A DNA stretch of 42,454 bases, from positions 1 through 42,454 of the IMG/VR virus record IMGVR_UViG_3300029267_003371; one strand, given 5' to 3'. The position numbers were made by a program, and so were the translations under genes. This DNA comes from a virus. Of this stretch, positions 24,557-32,237 are shown piece by piece (position 1 is the stretch's first letter; the number at the start of each line of letters is the position of its first letter). Below the pieces are notes generated by a model. That model saw only the letters and a list, made by a program, of their open reading frames with translations. It was not told the DNA's origin and did not search any database.

Positions 24557-25918
24557 TCACGCCCCCAGATTGCCCCCGAGGTCGATCGCCTCGACGTGGA
24601 AGGTGGGCGAGGAAGGCCAGCCGCCGGCCCGGTTCACTGCGAAGCGATAGCCGCCAGCGATCGGCGTGCAGGTCGAAAGCGCCGAGTAGCCCGCGGCGAA
24701 GGCGTCGCGCAGCCAGACCACCTCGTGAGCCGAGCCGAGCTCCACCGTGAGCACCACGAGCCCGAGACCCGCGTCGTCGGTCACGTCGATCACGAAGGGC
24801 TGGCGCGGTCCGATGTCCGAGCCGGCCGGGCTCACCACCGTCAAAGTCGGCGCCGTCGCGTCGCCGCCGAGCTCCTCGATCAGCACCACATCCTCGACGC
24901 TGACACCGCCCCCGAGGTCGGGGAGCGGGCAGGTCGAAACGTCGGGCCAGCCGGGAATCAGGAGGCCCCGGGAACCCGACGTGCCAGCCATGGCGACGTA
25001 GATCTCGCCGTTCTGGTCCCGGGCCAGCTTGTTATAGTCGGCCCCGGCGCCGATGTCCCAGGGCGAGAGGATCGCGTCCGACCGACCCCGCCAATAGGCA
25101 TTCGTCAGCCCCCCGTCGACGTGCCACCAGTCGGCGCGGCGCGTGCGGCGGAGGGAGTCGGTCGGATTCGCCAGGGACTTCTCCGGCAGGTACGATGAGA
25201 CGCCCCGCAGGATGATGCCGCCCGCATAGAGGGTCTTGTACGCCTCCCCGCCGCCCCCGAGGTCGAACCACGCCCCGTCACGGAGCAGCGAGTCAAAGGG
25301 CGCCCACTGCCCGTCGAGGTAATCGTACTGCATCGACGGGTCCTGCTCGCCCGTAGCGACGTCGCGGAGCAGGACGTGGCCACAACAGCCGGCCGCGAAG
25401 CCCGGCGCGCCCCCGCTCGCCGCCGCCTGCCAGAAGAACCACGGGATGAGCCCGTCCTCCTCGTCGCCGTAGATGAAATTCAGGTACGTATCAATATTTA
25501 GGGCGAACTTCGCCTCGCTGGCCGGGGCGTGAGGGTGACCCCAACAAACTTCGTCCGTGGCCGTGGGCCGAGCCGAGATCCCGCCCCCAGTGAATCCCGC
25601 GGCGACGGAGTACGCGTGCAGGAAGACATTGACCGAGCCATTCTTGTTCTGGAGCACGAGCTGCGAGCCGTCCGGCTGCTCGAGGCCGATCCAGGCGTCC
25701 GGATTGGCGAAGGACCCCGCGGCCGGCGTCGGGAGCGCGTTGCTGAGCACGTCGACGCCAGCCCCACCATGGAGCGAGTCACCATCGCCCGAACCGATCA
25801 CGGAGAGCCCCGCAGCCTTGAGGCAGTTCTTCCGCCAGAGTGCGGCGACGTGGGCGCCGCACTCCCCGCCCCCGCCGGCCCACGGGCACGCGACGTTGAT
25901 GATCGGGTGCCAGGCCAT
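24557..25918 (-). CDS. Uncharacterised baseplate/tail protein with C-terminal Ig-like domain
   Basis: A 453-aa protein placed between hub/spike and wedge genes, so almost certainly a virion component. It is Gly-, Trp- and Cys-rich (NVACPWAGGGGECGAHVAAL; ASGGAPGFAAGCCGHVLLRD), which is unusual for a tail protein and suggests disulphides or a metal site. Residues about 355-453 look like a bacterial Ig-like sandwich (TAPTLTVVSPAGSDIGPRQP ... EAIDLGGNLGA). The start is fixed by a TGATG overlap at 25918. No named family is recognised; the order suggests a tip or adhesion component. Confidence 0.62.
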   Translation of the reverse strand: MAWHPIINVACPWAGGGGECGAHVAALWRKNCLKAAGLSVIGSGDGDSLHGGAGVDVLSNALPTPAAGSFANPDAWIGLEQPDGSQLVLQNKNGSVNVFLHAYSVAAGFTGGGISARPTATDEVCWGHPHAPASEAKFALNIDTYLNFIYGDEEDGLIPWFFWQAAASGGAPGFAAGCCGHVLLRDVATGEQDPSMQYDYLDGQWAPFDSLLRDGAWFDLGGGGEAYKTLYAGGIILRGVSSYLPEKSLANPTDSLRRTRRADWWHVDGGLTNAYWRGRSDAILSPWDIGAGADYNKLARDQNGEIYVAMAGTSGSRGLLIPGWPDVSTCPLPDLGGGVSVEDVVLIEELGGDATAPTLTVVSPAGSDIGPRQPFVIDVTDDAGLGLVVLTVELGSAHEVVWLRDAFAAGYSALSTCTPIAGGYRFAVNRAGGWPSSPTFHVEAIDLGGNLGA

Positions 25919-27117
25919 CACTCGGCCCGCACTTTCGAGGCCCCCGTCGAGCCGGGCCACGACGCCAGGGCCGACAGGATATTCGCCTTGAACGCGGCGC
26001 CACCGTCGCCAGCCGTGACGCCGGCGCCGCTCACGGCCGACTTGAGCGCGTCGAGCTCGTCCTCGACCAGGTTGTGGAGCGCCACCTCGTGCGCCGCCCC
26101 GTCGCCGAGCTCGACCACGTCGGCGTCGAGCGTCAGCCGCAGCGGCGTCCACGCCGCCTGGTCGTGCCCCGCGAACGCCACGACCCGGGGCAGCGCGCGG
26201 TCCCCCTCGATGAACTCGACCAGGACCTCGAGGCCCGCCTGGAGGTTGAGATCGCAGCCCGGGACCCCCGGCGACAACTCGACGCCGACAAGCTCGGGCA
26301 GCCCGTGCGCGCTGAGCACCGGGCGAGCGTCGATCCCGTCCGCGGTCGTCCTCGTCACGCGGTAGCGCCAGGAGCCCCACAGGTGCCGCTCGGAGTACCG
26401 GCGATGCACCGCGTACGCCTGACTGTCCGCGAGCCCGTAGCGGCCCGCCCCCGTCCACACCTGCATTCGCAGGCCAGCCGGCGACGCACGCAGGTCCAGC
26501 TCCCGAACCACCTGGGCCTCGTCGAGCCCCTCCTCGAGCCGCGAGCCCACGACCACGCCGCGCGGGTCCTGGATTTCCAGCGTTGCCACGCGCTCCAGCG
26601 GGTCGTAGTCCAGGACGCGATGGGTGTCGGTGGTCGCCTCGACCTCGGGCCGCTCCGCCGCGACGTGCGTCACGCCCTCGTAGTCCACCCACCAGAGCAC
26701 GTCCCCGATCGCGTCCTCGAGCACCCGCCGGGCCAGCCCGCCCTGCCGGACGTAGTGGGGCCCGAGGCGCTCCTCGGCGGCCTCGAAGGTCCCCAGGGTC
26801 TCCCCGCCCGCCCGCGCCGCGTCCTCCGCCACCAGGACCGCTCGCACGCCCGTGTCGCTGCGGTAGTGCAGCGGCTCCACCTCGCTCCCCCAGCCCGCCG
26901 CGCCGGCGAAGACGAGCGCCCGGCGATGCCCGCCGTGCGTCCCGTCTCGCTCCGGCACCACTGTCCCCCTCAGTCGCAGCTCGTCGACCGCGATCTCGAC
27001 GCTCCCCTCGAGCTCGGGCGCGTCCACGAGATCGAGCCGAGCCCACCAGGCCCCGCGGTGGGGGACGTGGAGCTCCACCGAGACGAGCGGGTAGCCGTCG
27101 ACGGAAACGACGCTCAT
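25918..27117 (-). CDS. Baseplate hub/spike protein (gp44/gp45-like, possible fusion)
   Basis: A 399-aa protein. The N-terminal two-thirds has the strand-rich pattern of phage hub proteins (gpD/gp27-like: RLRGTVVPERDGTHGGHRRA, LHYRSDTGVRAVLVAEDAAR, VLWWVDYEGVTHVAAERP, RVLDYDPLERVATLEIQDPR). The last third (about residues 285-370) reads like an OB-fold/gpV spike region: GVPGCDLNLQAGLEVLVEFI, ALPRVVAFAGHDQAAWTPLR, VELGDGAAHEVALHNLVEDE. In Mu these roles are split between gp44 and gp45, so a fused hub-spike is likely. It starts at ATG 27117 by ATGA overlap. Confidence 0.75.
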   Translation of the reverse strand: MSVVSVDGYPLVSVELHVPHRGAWWARLDLVDAPELEGSVEIAVDELRLRGTVVPERDGTHGGHRRALVFAGAAGWGSEVEPLHYRSDTGVRAVLVAEDAARAGGETLGTFEAAEERLGPHYVRQGGLARRVLEDAIGDVLWWVDYEGVTHVAAERPEVEATTDTHRVLDYDPLERVATLEIQDPRGVVVGSRLEEGLDEAQVVRELDLRASPAGLRMQVWTGAGRYGLADSQAYAVHRRYSERHLWGSWRYRVTRTTADGIDARPVLSAHGLPELVGVELSPGVPGCDLNLQAGLEVLVEFIEGDRALPRVVAFAGHDQAAWTPLRLTLDADVVELGDGAAHEVALHNLVEDELDALKSAVSGAGVTAGDGGAAFKANILSALASWPGSTGASKVRAE

Positions 27118-27695
27118 CGGTTCCCCTCGGCGGCGAGCTGGTTGAGCTCCGCGGTCAGCCTCGCGATCTCCCGGTCCTGCTCGCTCGTGCCCGACTCCCG
27201 GTCCCGCCCTCCCGAGGTCGACAGCACGCGCTGGGGCCGCTGGTACTGGATCAGCTTGATCTCGACCTTCCAGACTCCGTGCTCGTCCTGGACGGGCGCC
27301 ACGACGTCCTCGACCACGACCTGGCGGATTCGATACTCCTCGAGGAGCGGGTGCCGGATGGACAGCGGCGGAGCCTGGCTCCGCATGACCCGGTAGAGAC
27401 TGGGGATCGAGGTGATGGCCCCCAGCTGGCTGCGATCGGGCGGCGGCGGCCTCCGGATGAGCGGCCCGAACTCGAGCCAGGCGTCCCAGTCCTCCTCGGT
27501 GTAGAGGCTGACCTCGAGCGAGAAGTGCGAGAGCCGCTGCCCCTTGTAGCGGAGGCGGCTCCCCATCATCCCGAAGGCTCGCCGCTCCTCCCACTCCCGC
27601 TCAGCCTTGAGCCCCTTGATGACGACGATCCCGGGCACCAGCCGATCGCTGATGTAGACCGCGTCCTCCGGCCGCCGCATCGGGTCGAAGGGCAT
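27114..27695 (-). CDS. Tail protein between tape measure and hub
   Basis: A 193-aa protein. Its core pattern (DRLVPGIVVIKGLKAEREWE; GMMGSRLRYKGQRLSHFSLE; HPLLEEYRIRQVVVEDVVAP; WKVEIKLIQYQRPQR) is that of phage proteins found right after the tape measure in contractile-tail phages, thought to join hub and tube. The C-terminal 35 residues form a charged helix. It is coupled by TGATG to the tape measure and by ATGA to the hub. No enzymatic motif is visible. Confidence 0.68.
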   Translation of the reverse strand: MPFDPMRRPEDAVYISDRLVPGIVVIKGLKAEREWEERRAFGMMGSRLRYKGQRLSHFSLEVSLYTEEDWDAWLEFGPLIRRPPPPDRSQLGAITSIPSLYRVMRSQAPPLSIRHPLLEEYRIRQVVVEDVVAPVQDEHGVWKVEIKLIQYQRPQRVLSTSGGRDRESGTSEQDREIARLTAELNQLAAEGNR

Positions 27696-29617
27696 CAGGC
27701 CGGCTCCGTCGCTAGCCCGGTGTCGAAGAACTCGCGGAGGGCGTCGGTCACGCGCCGGGCCGTGTCCTCCCCACCCTCGCCTTCGGCCCCGACGTGGACG
27801 TGGAGCTCGCCGACGCTCACCGCCCTCGAGGGCCCGCCCTGGATCGACGTGACCCGGCTCGTCGTCGTCGAGAGCATGCTGCCGACGGCGCGCGTCGACT
27901 CGGCCGAGCCCCGCTCCACGCCCTCGGCCACGCCCTGGGGGATTGCCAGGCCGAACCCGGCGAAGACGGCCGACGGCGAGTGAATCCCGAGCGCCGCCCG
28001 GAACGCGTTCATGGCGTCGGTCGCGACGTTGGTCACGGCCTGGCGCAGGCGAGCAACGCCCGTGTCAAGCCCCTGGATGATCCCCTCGATCATCGCCCGG
28101 CCCGCGTCGCTCCAGTCCACAGACGTGTAGAACTCATAGAGCTCGGCGAGAAACGCGACCAGCCGCTGGCCCCGCTGGTAGAGCAGGTAGAGCTCCCAGG
28201 CCAGCACCAGGACCGGCATCAGCAGCCCGACCACCACCATGGTCAGCACGAAGACGGCCGCGGCCAGCCCCACGACAACGAGGCCGACGGCGATGAGGCC
28301 GATCCTCAGATAGTCCATCGCCTGCCGGTTCTCGAGCATCCGGCCGAGCAGCCGAGGTCCAAAGGTCCGCTGAATCTCGTTCCGCACCCGGACGAACACG
28401 ATCGCCAGTCGCAGGGCGAGGATCACGAGCTCCTTGAAGAAGTACTCGATCGCCGGCGCGGTGCCCCCGAGCTCGTCGACGAGGGGGCCGAGGATGGCCG
28501 ACATGATGGCCCGGAGCGCCCGGCCCGACTCGGTGTTCTGGCTCAGGAGCTGCGTCAGCCGGTGGAGACCGGAGAGGAGCGGCTCGAGGTTGATCCCGGT
28601 GAAGAGCGCATGGAGGGACTCGCGGAGCTTCGTCGACAGCATCGACAGCGACCGCATCTGCGCGGCCGCGACGCCCCCGAGCTCCCGGCGGACGCGCTCC
28701 GCCAGGTCGTGCATCGCGCCCTCACTGTGCCCCGCCTCCCGCACGAGCATCATGAGGCGCCGCCGGCCCAGGTCCCCCTGCACGGCCTGCGCGATGGAGA
28801 GCGCCTCGAGGGCGTCCTCGGCGGCCCGCCCCCGGATGCCCAGCCGGTGGAGCTCCTGGCCGTAGCCCGCGATCTGGCTGCGCGCCAGGGGGACGCGCTC
28901 GGAGACCCGGTTGATGCTCTCAGACATCTGGGCCGCGTCCTCGGACGACAGTCGCATCCATCGGTGCAGCGTGCCGAGCCCCTCGAGGCGCAAGCGCTCC
29001 GAGCGCATCGCGTCACCCTGCGCCGCGGCGTAGCGGAGGAGCTGGGCCGTCGCCTTGCCGGTGGCGACAGCGAGCGCGCCGAGGGCCGCGACCAGCGCCA
29101 CCAGTACCGCGACAGCCGCGGCAACGACGGCGACGGCGATCGCGGCCGCGAGCACCCCCGCCGCCGTGGTCCCTACCGCGACAAGAGCCTTCCCCACCCT
29201 GGCCAGTGGAGATGGCAGGGCCTTCGCCCTCGAGGCCATCTCCTGCATACCCCGCGACTCCATCCGGATCGCGAGGTTTTGGGTCCGACGCTGACGGATG
29301 TTCGCGAAGAACTGCTTGATCTGGACGAAGCTCGAGCCGAATTTCTTGTTCGCCCGCCCGGCCTGGTCGATCCCGCCCGTCAGTCGCCTGTATGCCGCTG
29401 TGATGTTGAAGATGAGCAGGAGCAGCCGGAGAGCCGAATCGACTCGCATCATCCTGGACGACCCCATGAGACGCATCGTCTTCTGCATCTCGACGAGCGC
29501 CCTCGTGTTGCGGTCCAGCTGCGCCTGGAGAGATTTCAGGGCTTCCTGCGCGGAGTCGCTCGAGCCGCTGATCCCGTCCTCGAGCTCGAGCGCAAACCTG
29601 GCAGTCTCCGTCGCCAT
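27695..29617 (-). CDS. Tail tape measure protein
   Basis: A 640-aa protein that sets tail length and is probably ejected with the DNA. It is mostly helical. An N-terminal coiled coil (ALKSLQAQLDRNTRALVEMQ, about residues 25-45) is followed by a first hydrophobic cluster (about 165-215, VAAAVAVLVALVAALGALAV) and a second cluster (about 435-475, IAVGLVVVGLAAAVFVLTMV). The C-terminal HSPSAVFAGFGLAIPQGVAE is the classic end motif of tape measures. Compared with Mu (about 700 aa) it is slightly short, implying a tail of about Mu length or less. It lies directly downstream of the chaperone frameshift site. Confidence 0.92.
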   Translation of the reverse strand: MATETARFALELEDGISGSSDSAQEALKSLQAQLDRNTRALVEMQKTMRLMGSSRMMRVDSALRLLLLIFNITAAYRRLTGGIDQAGRANKKFGSSFVQIKQFFANIRQRRTQNLAIRMESRGMQEMASRAKALPSPLARVGKALVAVGTTAAGVLAAAIAVAVVAAAVAVLVALVAALGALAVATGKATAQLLRYAAAQGDAMRSERLRLEGLGTLHRWMRLSSEDAAQMSESINRVSERVPLARSQIAGYGQELHRLGIRGRAAEDALEALSIAQAVQGDLGRRRLMMLVREAGHSEGAMHDLAERVRRELGGVAAAQMRSLSMLSTKLRESLHALFTGINLEPLLSGLHRLTQLLSQNTESGRALRAIMSAILGPLVDELGGTAPAIEYFFKELVILALRLAIVFVRVRNEIQRTFGPRLLGRMLENRQAMDYLRIGLIAVGLVVVGLAAAVFVLTMVVVGLLMPVLVLAWELYLLYQRGQRLVAFLAELYEFYTSVDWSDAGRAMIEGIIQGLDTGVARLRQAVTNVATDAMNAFRAALGIHSPSAVFAGFGLAIPQGVAEGVERGSAESTRAVGSMLSTTTSRVTSIQGGPSRAVSVGELHVHVGAEGEGGEDTARRVTDALREFFDTGLATEPA

Positions 29618-29620
29618 CGG

Positions 29621-30282
29621 TCACTTCGAGAGAGCCTTTTGGACGAGCTTGCGAAGGCGCTTCAGCTCGAGCAGTCCTTCGGCCAGCTCCATCGCTCCCG
29701 CCACCGCTCTCACGTGCTGCTCCTCGTCCTCGCTCTCGGCCGTCCCTAGCGCGGCCAGGAGGAGCTCGGCCGCGAGGCGCACGTTGTAACTGTCACCGTC
29801 CGGCCGCGCCTCCTCCCGGACGCTCGCTATTTTCCCTCGACCTCCTCGACCTCGCCGTTGCCCATCTCGACCACCGCGTTGCCGAGGCGGGCGGGGACGC
29901 CGGGGTACTCCTCGGTGATCTCCTCGACCTTCGCCACGTCGGGGTAAACGATGCAGGGCTTGACGAGGCGCCAGATGTCCATGTCGTCGAAGCCCTTGGC
30001 CGAGGCGGCTTTCCTCGTGAATTTCTGGAACGCCAGGTGATGGGGCTTCTTGACGACGATCGCGCCGAGCGGGGTGTTCACGACGCGGATCACACCGTGC
30101 TCCTCCTCGGCCGCCTGGACGTGCGGAAGGTCCCGCGCCTTGTTCTCCTCGAACCGCGCCTTCCGCTCGAGCTCTCGGAGCTCCTCGCGCTCCCGAGACT
30201 GCTCCTCGAATGCGGCGCTCTTCTCCCGCGCCTCACGGATGCGCCGCAGCGCCGCCTCCCTCGGGTCCTCGACGTCGCTCAT
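29621..30282 (-). CDS. Tail assembly chaperone, frameshifted long form (G-T-like)
   Basis: The long product is predicted from a -1 frameshift at GGGAAAA (29836-29830). The 151-aa short form is extended by 69 residues of the overlapping frame (IASVREEARPDGDSYNVRLA ... KLVQKALSK) to a stop at 29621-29623, giving 220 aa. The extension frame has no ATG or GTG with a ribosome site near its beginning, has coding-like composition, and ends four bases before the tape measure start. This matches the conserved lambda G/GT arrangement: a short form and a rarer long form that chaperone the tape measure. The frameshift is inferred from sequence; its efficiency is unknown. Confidence 0.8.
29827..30282 (-). 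CDS. Tail assembly chaperone, short form (G-like)
   Basis: A 151-aa acidic protein located between tail tube and tape measure. A strongly charged N-terminal helix (RRIREAREKSAAFEEQSRER) is followed by a compact C-terminal domain (LAFQKFTRKAASAKGFDDMD; KPCIVYPDVAKVEEITEEYP; VPARLGNAVVEM). This pattern is usual for contractile-phage tail chaperones (Mu gp41-like). It ends GVEGK-type, with the codons GAG-GGA-AAA-TAG at the stop. A small share of ribosomes should shift -1 just before that stop. It starts at ATG 30282. Confidence 0.85.
   Translation of the reverse strand: MSDVEDPREAALRRIREAREKSAAFEEQSREREELRELERKARFEENKARDLPHVQAAEEEHGVIRVVNTPLGAIVVKKPHHLAFQKFTRKAASAKGFDDMDIWRLVKPCIVYPDVAKVEEITEEYPGVPARLGNAVVEMGNGEVEEVEGK
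29830..29836 (-). promoter_or_regulatory. -1 frameshift slippery heptamer GGGAAAA at the tail chaperone stop
   Basis: Minus-strand codons GAG-GGA-AAA-TAG contain the canonical X-XXY-YYZ heptamer G-GGA-AAA, one codon before the TAG. A -1 slip continues into ATA-GCG-AGC, which is open for 69 codons. Just upstream, AGGAGG (in GAG-GAG-GTC) could act as an internal Shine-Dalgarno stimulator at about ten bases, as in bacterial frameshift cassettes. Confidence 0.78.
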
Positions 30283-30283
30283 C

Positions 30284-30748
30284 TCACCACTCCTGGTAGA
30301 GACTCAGGCCGTTGCGCAGGATCCCGAAGGTCGACCACTTGAGCTCCTCGCTGAGCACGTCGGCGCCTTCCTCGTCGCTGCTCCCGACCTCGACCAGGCG
30401 GCAGTCCTCGAACTCCACCGTGATCGGCGTGTCGTCCGGCTCGAGGTACTGGAGGACGATCGGCACGGTGACCGTCCCGTAGGAGGTGCCGTCGCCGCGG
30501 GCCGCCAGCATGTCGCGGATCGCCTGCGCGGTGCTCGTCTGGACCTTCATGACCACCTGCTCGGCGCTGTACTTCCCTCGGGACTGGGCCCTCGGCTTGT
30601 GAGCCTTGCCCATGCCGTACCCGAAGGCCGTCTCGAGCTTGTCCGAGTAGGAGATCGACGAGATGCCCGAGTAGCGCTCGCCGGCGATCTTGAGCTTCAC
30701 CGAGCCCCACGAGTGGGAGATGCCGTTGATTCGGATTTCGTCAGCCAT
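30284..30748 (-). CDS. Tail tube protein (Mu gpM-like)
   Basis: A 154-aa protein between the sheath and the chaperone, with the strand-rich pattern of contractile-phage tubes (RINGISHSWGSVKLKIAGER; VTVPIVLQYLEPDDTPITVE; DCRLVEVGSSDEEGADVLSE). GYGMGKAHKPRAQSRGKYSA is the loop that often contacts sheath or neighbouring rings. It starts 16 bases after the sheath stop, at ATG 30748. Hexameric rings of this protein would form the inner tail channel. Confidence 0.85.
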   Translation of the reverse strand: MADEIRINGISHSWGSVKLKIAGERYSGISSISYSDKLETAFGYGMGKAHKPRAQSRGKYSAEQVVMKVQTSTAQAIRDMLAARGDGTSYGTVTVPIVLQYLEPDDTPITVEFEDCRLVEVGSSDEEGADVLSEELKWSTFGILRNGLSLYQEW

Positions 30749-30764: not shown

Positions 30765-32237
30765 TCAGACCCCGCGGGCCTGGATCGCCGGGTTCTCGAA
30801 TCCGATCTCGACGTCGATGAACTCCGGATAGGCCATCGGCACGATCCGGCACGTGCCGTTCATCAGCTTCGTCGACAACAGGTTGTCGGTGCGCGAGAGC
30901 ACGAACCGCGCCCCGCTCGCCTTCGGCTTCGCCAGCAGCGCCCCCCGCAGCGCCGCGTTCGCCCCCGCCTCGATCTCGAGGGCCTCTTCCTCGAGGATGT
31001 AGCCCGTGGTCGCGTTGACGAGGATCTCCTCGTTGACGCGCTCCTCGAGGTAGGCGCGGACCACCGTCTTTGCCAGGTTGATCACCCGCCGGTGCGGGAT
31101 GAGCTGGTAATCGCTCGTCGGCGTCGAGAGCATCCGCGGCCGGTTGATGTACACGCCGGGCCGCCCCTCCCAGGTACGGAGCACGAGGAACCGCGCGTCG
31201 TCGAGCCCGGGGTTGGTGCTCTCGTCGTGGTCGTCGGGGTTGCCGTTCTCGTCGGTGATGATCACGCCGTCCATCCGGCCCACCTTGACGTTCGCCAGGT
31301 TGACCTCCTCGGACTTCACGGCGTGCGCCGGGGCCACCCAGAAGCTCGGGGGCCGGCGGTACTGGCGCCCGCTGACGCCGCTGATCATCTTCGCGCTCCC
31401 GGCGCAGACCGCGCCGTAGACGGTGCTCAGGCTGGAGTAGATGGTGTCGAGCGCCGTGAGGTACGTCGCCTCGCTCTCGCCGATGTCCGGCATTCTGGCG
31501 TGCCCGATGTACATCCGATCCTTGCCGTAGGCCGGCATTCCCGAGACCGCCGTCTCGACCGCGGCGAAGAGCGTCGCGTCGAGCGCGCCGCACACCTCGA
31601 CGATTGACCAGAGCTGCGCGCACTTCCGCAGCGCCAGCATCGCCGACGCGATGTCGGTCGCGTCCCACATCGGCGCGGTTGAGCGGAACGTCACGAGGTC
31701 CCCCGCGACCAGGGTCTCGGTGGCCACGCCGAAGGTCAGCTCCACGTCCGTCCCCACGATGGCGCCGGAGTCCGGGAACTCGAAGGTCAGCGCGGTTCCG
31801 AGGGCGATCTCGGCGCTCTGCGTCCGCCCGCCGTCCATCGACCACTTGAACGTGATCCCGGCGGTCCCGAGCGCACCCCCGGTGATGACCTCGATGTGAA
31901 ACTCGCAGTCGTCGGCCGGGTCGGGACTCGCGGCCACGCTCACAGTCGCCGTGCCCGAGCCGGTCAGCACGGCCGACGTCAGCTCCCCGTCCGTCGTGGC
32001 CCCGGCGCGCACGAGCAGCACCGGCCGGCCGAACTTCGTGATCGCGTAGGCCGCGGCCTCGACGAGCGGGCCGAAGCCGAAGTCGGCCACCACGTCCGAG
32101 ACCCTGGCGTAGGCCGCCGGGGTGTCCTCCGGGCCGTCCGTCGACGTCCCGACGATCGCCGGAAGGGCCCCCTCCGTCGGCGGCAGAATGCCCAGCGCGC
32201 CGTCGAGCTCGGTCATATCCACTCTCGGCTGTGTCAT
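30765..32237 (-). CDS. Contractile tail sheath protein (Mu gpL-like)
   Basis: A 490-aa sheath monomer, which makes the virion a myovirus. The N-terminal half contains the variable barrel (ILPPTEGALPAIVGTSTDGP; GRPVLLVRAGATTDGELTSA). The C-terminal half shows conserved sheath blocks: RRPPSFWVAPAHAVKSEEVN, ARFLVLRTWEGRPGVYINRP, QLIPHRRVINLAKTVVRAYL and NEEILVNATTGYILEEEALE. The last 30 residues (RIVPMAYPEFIDVEIGFENP) supply the strand that interlocks sheath rings. It starts at ATG 32237, three bases after the upstream stop. Length is similar to Mu gpL. Confidence 0.92.
   Translation of the reverse strand: MTQPRVDMTELDGALGILPPTEGALPAIVGTSTDGPEDTPAAYARVSDVVADFGFGPLVEAAAYAITKFGRPVLLVRAGATTDGELTSAVLTGSGTATVSVAASPDPADDCEFHIEVITGGALGTAGITFKWSMDGGRTQSAEIALGTALTFEFPDSGAIVGTDVELTFGVATETLVAGDLVTFRSTAPMWDATDIASAMLALRKCAQLWSIVEVCGALDATLFAAVETAVSGMPAYGKDRMYIGHARMPDIGESEATYLTALDTIYSSLSTVYGAVCAGSAKMISGVSGRQYRRPPSFWVAPAHAVKSEEVNLANVKVGRMDGVIITDENGNPDDHDESTNPGLDDARFLVLRTWEGRPGVYINRPRMLSTPTSDYQLIPHRRVINLAKTVVRAYLEERVNEEILVNATTGYILEEEALEIEAGANAALRGALLAKPKASGARFVLSRTDNLLSTKLMNGTCRIVPMAYPEFIDVEIGFENPAIQARGV

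Follow-up and report, generated by a model that had tools for sequence, protein, structure and literature searches.

Does the small gene that lies directly ahead of a tape measure gene in an uncultured phage specify one tail protein or two? The phage is represented by a virus record (IMGVR_UViG_3300029267_003371), an assembly of environmental DNA, and is known here from sequence alone; all 42,454 bases of it are referred to below as the window. A preliminary description had read the locus as a G/GT-type cassette, in which -1 frameshifting joins the short and long forms of a tail assembly chaperone, and that reading is supported by a heptamer, phase and frame that are conserved in relatives, by the position of the genes and by the chaperone-like fold predicted for the short form. 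We put at about 0.93 the probability that the locus is a lambda G/GT-type tail chaperone cassette with programmed -1 frameshifting in a Mu-like contractile phage. The putative cassette has three parts:

29827..30282, minus strand: short form of a G-like tail assembly chaperone, 151 amino acids (aa), an open frame with weak phrog_5128 and DUF6848 matches, assigned by profile and fold
29830..29836, minus strand: slippery heptamer G GGA AAA, with UAG directly 3' of it
29621..29830, minus strand: extension in the -1 frame, which would supply the T-like part of a long form; 69 codons and a stop codon

The short-form gene ends GAG GGA AAA TAG on the minus strand, as had been described, and the GGGAAAA at 29836-29830 stands in the phase (G GGA AAA) that tandem -1 slippage needs. 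The 69-codon frame entered by the slip, likewise reported earlier, can be read to a TGA at 29623-29621, after which 3 bases precede the tape measure ATG at 29617. Other phased heptamers of the form X XXY YYZ (Y = A or T) occurred at none of 2238 in-frame codon positions in five neighbouring open frames, namely four genes and an 829-aa open reading frame at 24557-27046 that is perhaps not a gene. In addition, the expected probability that Gly-Lys is written GGA AAA in this genome, with its 71% guanine plus cytosine (GC), is 0.054 x 0.114 = 0.006 (0.6%).

Scans of viral contigs identified two near-identical copies of the locus and two diverged contigs, L003 and L007, whose short forms are 74 and 48% identical, respectively, to that of the window, and whose extensions are 59 and 73% identical. 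The preliminary description had named an alignment of related phages as a check, and heptamer, phase and -1 frame are all kept in both contigs. Their short forms end GAG GGA AAA TAR, so that the rare codons GGA AAA are retained and the identical heptamer stands in the same phase, and the -1 frame extension runs up to the tape measure gene (69 codons in L003, 67 in L007). Both have a stop in the -1 frame just upstream of the heptamer; therefore, the switch of frame is confined to ~18 nucleotides (nt), where the heptamer sits. Differences between the extensions are biased to the third codon position (27/14/44 at positions 1/2/3 for window and L003, 17/8/42 for window and L007), nonsynonymous divergence (dN) is 0.34 and 0.18, respectively, with synonymous divergence (dS) saturated, and the two remaining frames of the extension contain stops. 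The extension is thus conserved as coding sequence in the shifted frame, as in cassettes of the G/GT type. The heptamer, its phase, its conservation and the coding nature of the -1 frame are all read from these sequences.

The alternative that survives best, albeit as an improbable one, is that the extension belongs to a small gene in its own right, whose translation would begin by re-initiation or at a start of its own. The upstream stop is near enough to favour translational coupling, a GTG stands in frame at extension codon 17, and the annotation of the Myxococcus phage Mx4 treats the comparable p57 and p58 in this way. However, no ribosome-binding site is evident before that GTG and the start is not conserved, codon 17 being GTG, GTG and GTT in the window, L003 and L007, so the earlier statement that the extension has no plausible start was essentially right. 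Moreover, residues I1, S3, R5 and A8-D11, all of which precede codon 17, are invariant. It is this conservation up to the first extension codon, together with the lack of a conserved start, that disfavours a separate gene, which would also leave the conserved, phased heptamer unexplained. Slippage by the polymerase rather than the ribosome is less probable still as the source of a long form: the heptamer does hold a run of A, but one of four only, polymerase slippage as a rule needs longer runs, and the phase and tandem-codon structure fit a ribosomal -1 slip. An artefactual indel in one gene, or an unused open frame, has next to no probability, even though long stop-free frames are expected at high GC and the window is an environmental assembly, since the same cassette anatomy recurs in five records, including two that have diverged widely, and the divergence is of the coding type, which largely refutes it. 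Read-through of the stop as a way to reach the extension was rejected, since the extension is out of frame with the short form and the stop codon varies between TAG and TAA among the relatives.

The short form could be assigned only through more distant comparisons. Its direct family matches are weak (phrog_5128 at 7e-4), and against DUF6848 (PF20941) it scores 16.1 bits, below the gathering cut-off of 27. Profile-profile comparison matched it with 97.7% probability to the DUF6848-type proteins of cousin phages, which were gathered by sheath-based searches and comprise Mx4, Meiothermus and Thermus phages and several prophages. That DUF6848-type group matches PDB entry 3FGX at 3.8e-14, and 3FGX has been described as a phage tail assembly chaperone (PMC9603447). 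A structure model of residues 53-151 (predicted local distance difference test, pLDDT, 84) had as its top PDB matches 3FGX (E 1.3e-3, template modelling (TM) score 0.64) and then the HK97 tail assembly chaperone 2OB9 (E 0.011, TM 0.50); these E-values are moderate, though both top matches are chaperones. The predicted fold, then, places the short form among the tail assembly chaperones. A first structure model, from three sequences, was too poor for use (pLDDT 60), and searching PDB sequences with only the close family gave nothing but chance matches. An extra N-terminal segment of ~50 residues (residues 1-52; window 30127-30282, minus strand), predicted to be helical in a low-confidence model, is present in the window protein and in those of L003 and L007 but not in the cousin chaperones.

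The position of the cassette is likewise that of a G/GT-type system, between the sheath and tube-like genes and the tape measure gene:

30765..32237, minus strand: tail sheath (DUF2586, Mu-like contractile tail; phrog_907 at 8.7e-29, PF10758 at 1.1e-21)
30284..30748, minus strand: tail tube-like gene, 154 aa, assigned by position, with a gene of equal size at the corresponding place in both L003 and L007; no family match, Pfam included
27695..29617, minus strand: tape measure protein gene, 640 aa, with PHROG tape-measure matches down to 2e-15

In addition to the DUF2586 sheath and tape measure, the window codes for a Mu-type portal, an S49-type head protease, a major head protein and a baseplate J protein, and is, judged by this gene content, a Mu-like contractile-tail phage.

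Two elements near the heptamer were considered as stimulators of the slip:

29841..29846, minus strand: AGGAGG, the candidate put forward earlier, judged unlikely from its spacing and its absence in relatives
29797..29822, minus strand: candidate 3' stem CGUCCGG/CCGGACG, 7 base pairs, 7 nt past the heptamer, starting at +13

The AGGAGG had been placed about ten bases upstream of the heptamer, which holds for its first base only, as its last base is 4 nt away. Shine-Dalgarno (SD) sequences that stimulate -1 frameshifting stand 8-11 nt upstream of the slip site, and those adjoining the E site favour +1 and lower -1 frameshifting (PMC6321510). With a 4-nt spacer, and with the motif missing from L003 and L007, AGGAGG was rejected as a -1 stimulator. 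A 3' hairpin is the likelier one, judged by the sequences of the relatives. L003 has a stem, AGCCUGC-GCAA-GCGGGCU, that starts 11 nt from the P-site codon, and L007 has a stem, GCCUGC-GAAA-GCAGGC, that starts at 12 nt; the hairpin of dnaX acts at a spacing of 11-12 nt from the P-site codon (PMC7282821). In windows of 24-36 nt, codon-preserving shuffles folded as well in 0 to 0.04% of cases for L003 (0/5000 for 24 and 36 nt) and in 0.6-1.1% for L007. The window itself can also form a weaker GNRA-capped stem at the place homologous to those of its relatives. A larger fold of 87 nt (z = -3.7) was not used, as it had no check against coding constraint or conservation.

Several results weigh against a G/GT-type interpretation or qualify the evidence for it. 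The -1 frame of the window is already free of stops for ~400 nt upstream of the heptamer, and because of this and the 71% GC, the 69-codon open frame alone is weak evidence. The close family consists of three independent sequences only. The extension has no family match, including any that would tie it to lambda T, and its profile matches the extensions of the cousins weakly (probability 8%); a T-like function would therefore be assigned to it from position only. Finally, the window hairpin is not above the GC background, 25-33% of codon-preserving shuffles folding as well, and was dropped as a proven element since it is not significant under that comparison. The main weight of the case for frameshifting, as drawn from sequence comparison, is carried by conservation in relatives, and not by the open frame alone.

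Programmed -1 frameshifting at this locus is accordingly well supported by sequence, and for the slippage itself, its efficiency and the role of the hairpin we infer the following. Most ribosomes would stop at the UAG and release the 151-aa G-like short form, while a minority, with transfer RNAs on GGA in the P site and AAA in the A site, would slip one base back, onto GGG and AAA, and so append 69 residues for a GT-like long form of 220 aa. If lambda is a guide, coating of the tape measure protein would fall to the short form and recruitment of tail tube subunits to the extension. The slip would fix the ratio of short to long form, and its efficiency is probably boosted by a stem that begins 11-13 nt 3' of the P-site codon. 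Slippage of 6-7% is reported for related chaperone genes of phages (PMC3711429).

The cassette nevertheless differs from lambda G/GT in several respects. The window is a contractile-tail phage with a chaperone from another sequence family, and its slip directly precedes the stop, unlike that of lambda. The lambda heptamer is GGGAAAG. The Mu gp41/FluMu gp41-type system shares with the window a Mu-like tail module, the series of sheath, tube, chaperone and tape measure; the shift in Mu is reportedly -2 (PMC5009743), as opposed to -1 in the window, and in KS10 no shift site was found (PMC2628397). The DUF6848-type chaperones of phages with a DUF2586 sheath (Mx4, MMP17, Riverbug and clostridial prophages) have the same gene order and a related chaperone. 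In the cousins examined, the chaperone is followed, ahead of the tape measure, by an extension in another frame, as in the window, but their slips differ and include AAAAAAA, U-runs and an apparent +1 UUU-C in Thermales phages.

The direction of the shift in these cousins was read from stop positions, by which +1 and -2 are indistinguishable in sequence alone. A Polyangiaceae prophage has a -1 slip at GAG GGA AAA G, and Clostridia have -1 slips at U-runs, some of them imperfect. In Mx4 (L017:7877-8424), p57 and p58 are annotated apart and resemble a single -1 frameshifted chaperone, with GAA AAA AAA G. A +1 (or -2) frame holds the extension in Meiothermus MMP17 (L018:8143-8304; junction GAT TTT CGG), a Meiothermus prophage (L024:7144-7305; GAA TTT CGC) and the Thermus phage Riverbug (L019:8145-8312; CGA TTT CTG), and these TTT C junctions suggest +1 frameshifting. 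The MMP17 and Riverbug records have no fused chaperone coding sequence annotated. At a locus in a Polyangia metagenome-assembled genome (L030:2967-3266) the extension is likewise offset by +1 (or -2), at CGA AAA AGC TAG, where the slip is possibly on AAAA. Since tailed phages use -1, -2 or +1 shifts at their tail chaperone genes, as already listed in a review (PMC5009743), this diversity is a variation on a known theme.

The arrangement in the window is itself a textbook one, and what is soundly predicted for this unannotated phage group is an ordinary and well-known mechanism. Its description corrects gene calling in that group and identifies a 69-residue part of a protein that ordinary annotation would miss. 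A tblastn search of ~50,000 phage records with the short form and the extension gave no match to the cassette, an initial scan of genomes that used the short form as query gave none either, and viral-contig scans with the tape measure and sheath returned only the near-identical contigs. Across the lineage with a DUF2586 sheath and a DUF6848 chaperone, we lean slightly toward the view that the fusion was retained through repeated swaps of the recoding signal (GGGAAAA plus a 3' hairpin, AAAAAAA, U-runs, +1 UUU-C in Thermus and Meiothermus phages), with the junction at about the same place of the chaperone. Because the fusion is conserved across cousins with different slip signals, these sequences suggest that selection keeps the two-form chaperone and not a particular slip. 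If true, the repeated swapping of the signal would provide a natural series on how the direction of frameshifting can change while the ratio of products is kept.
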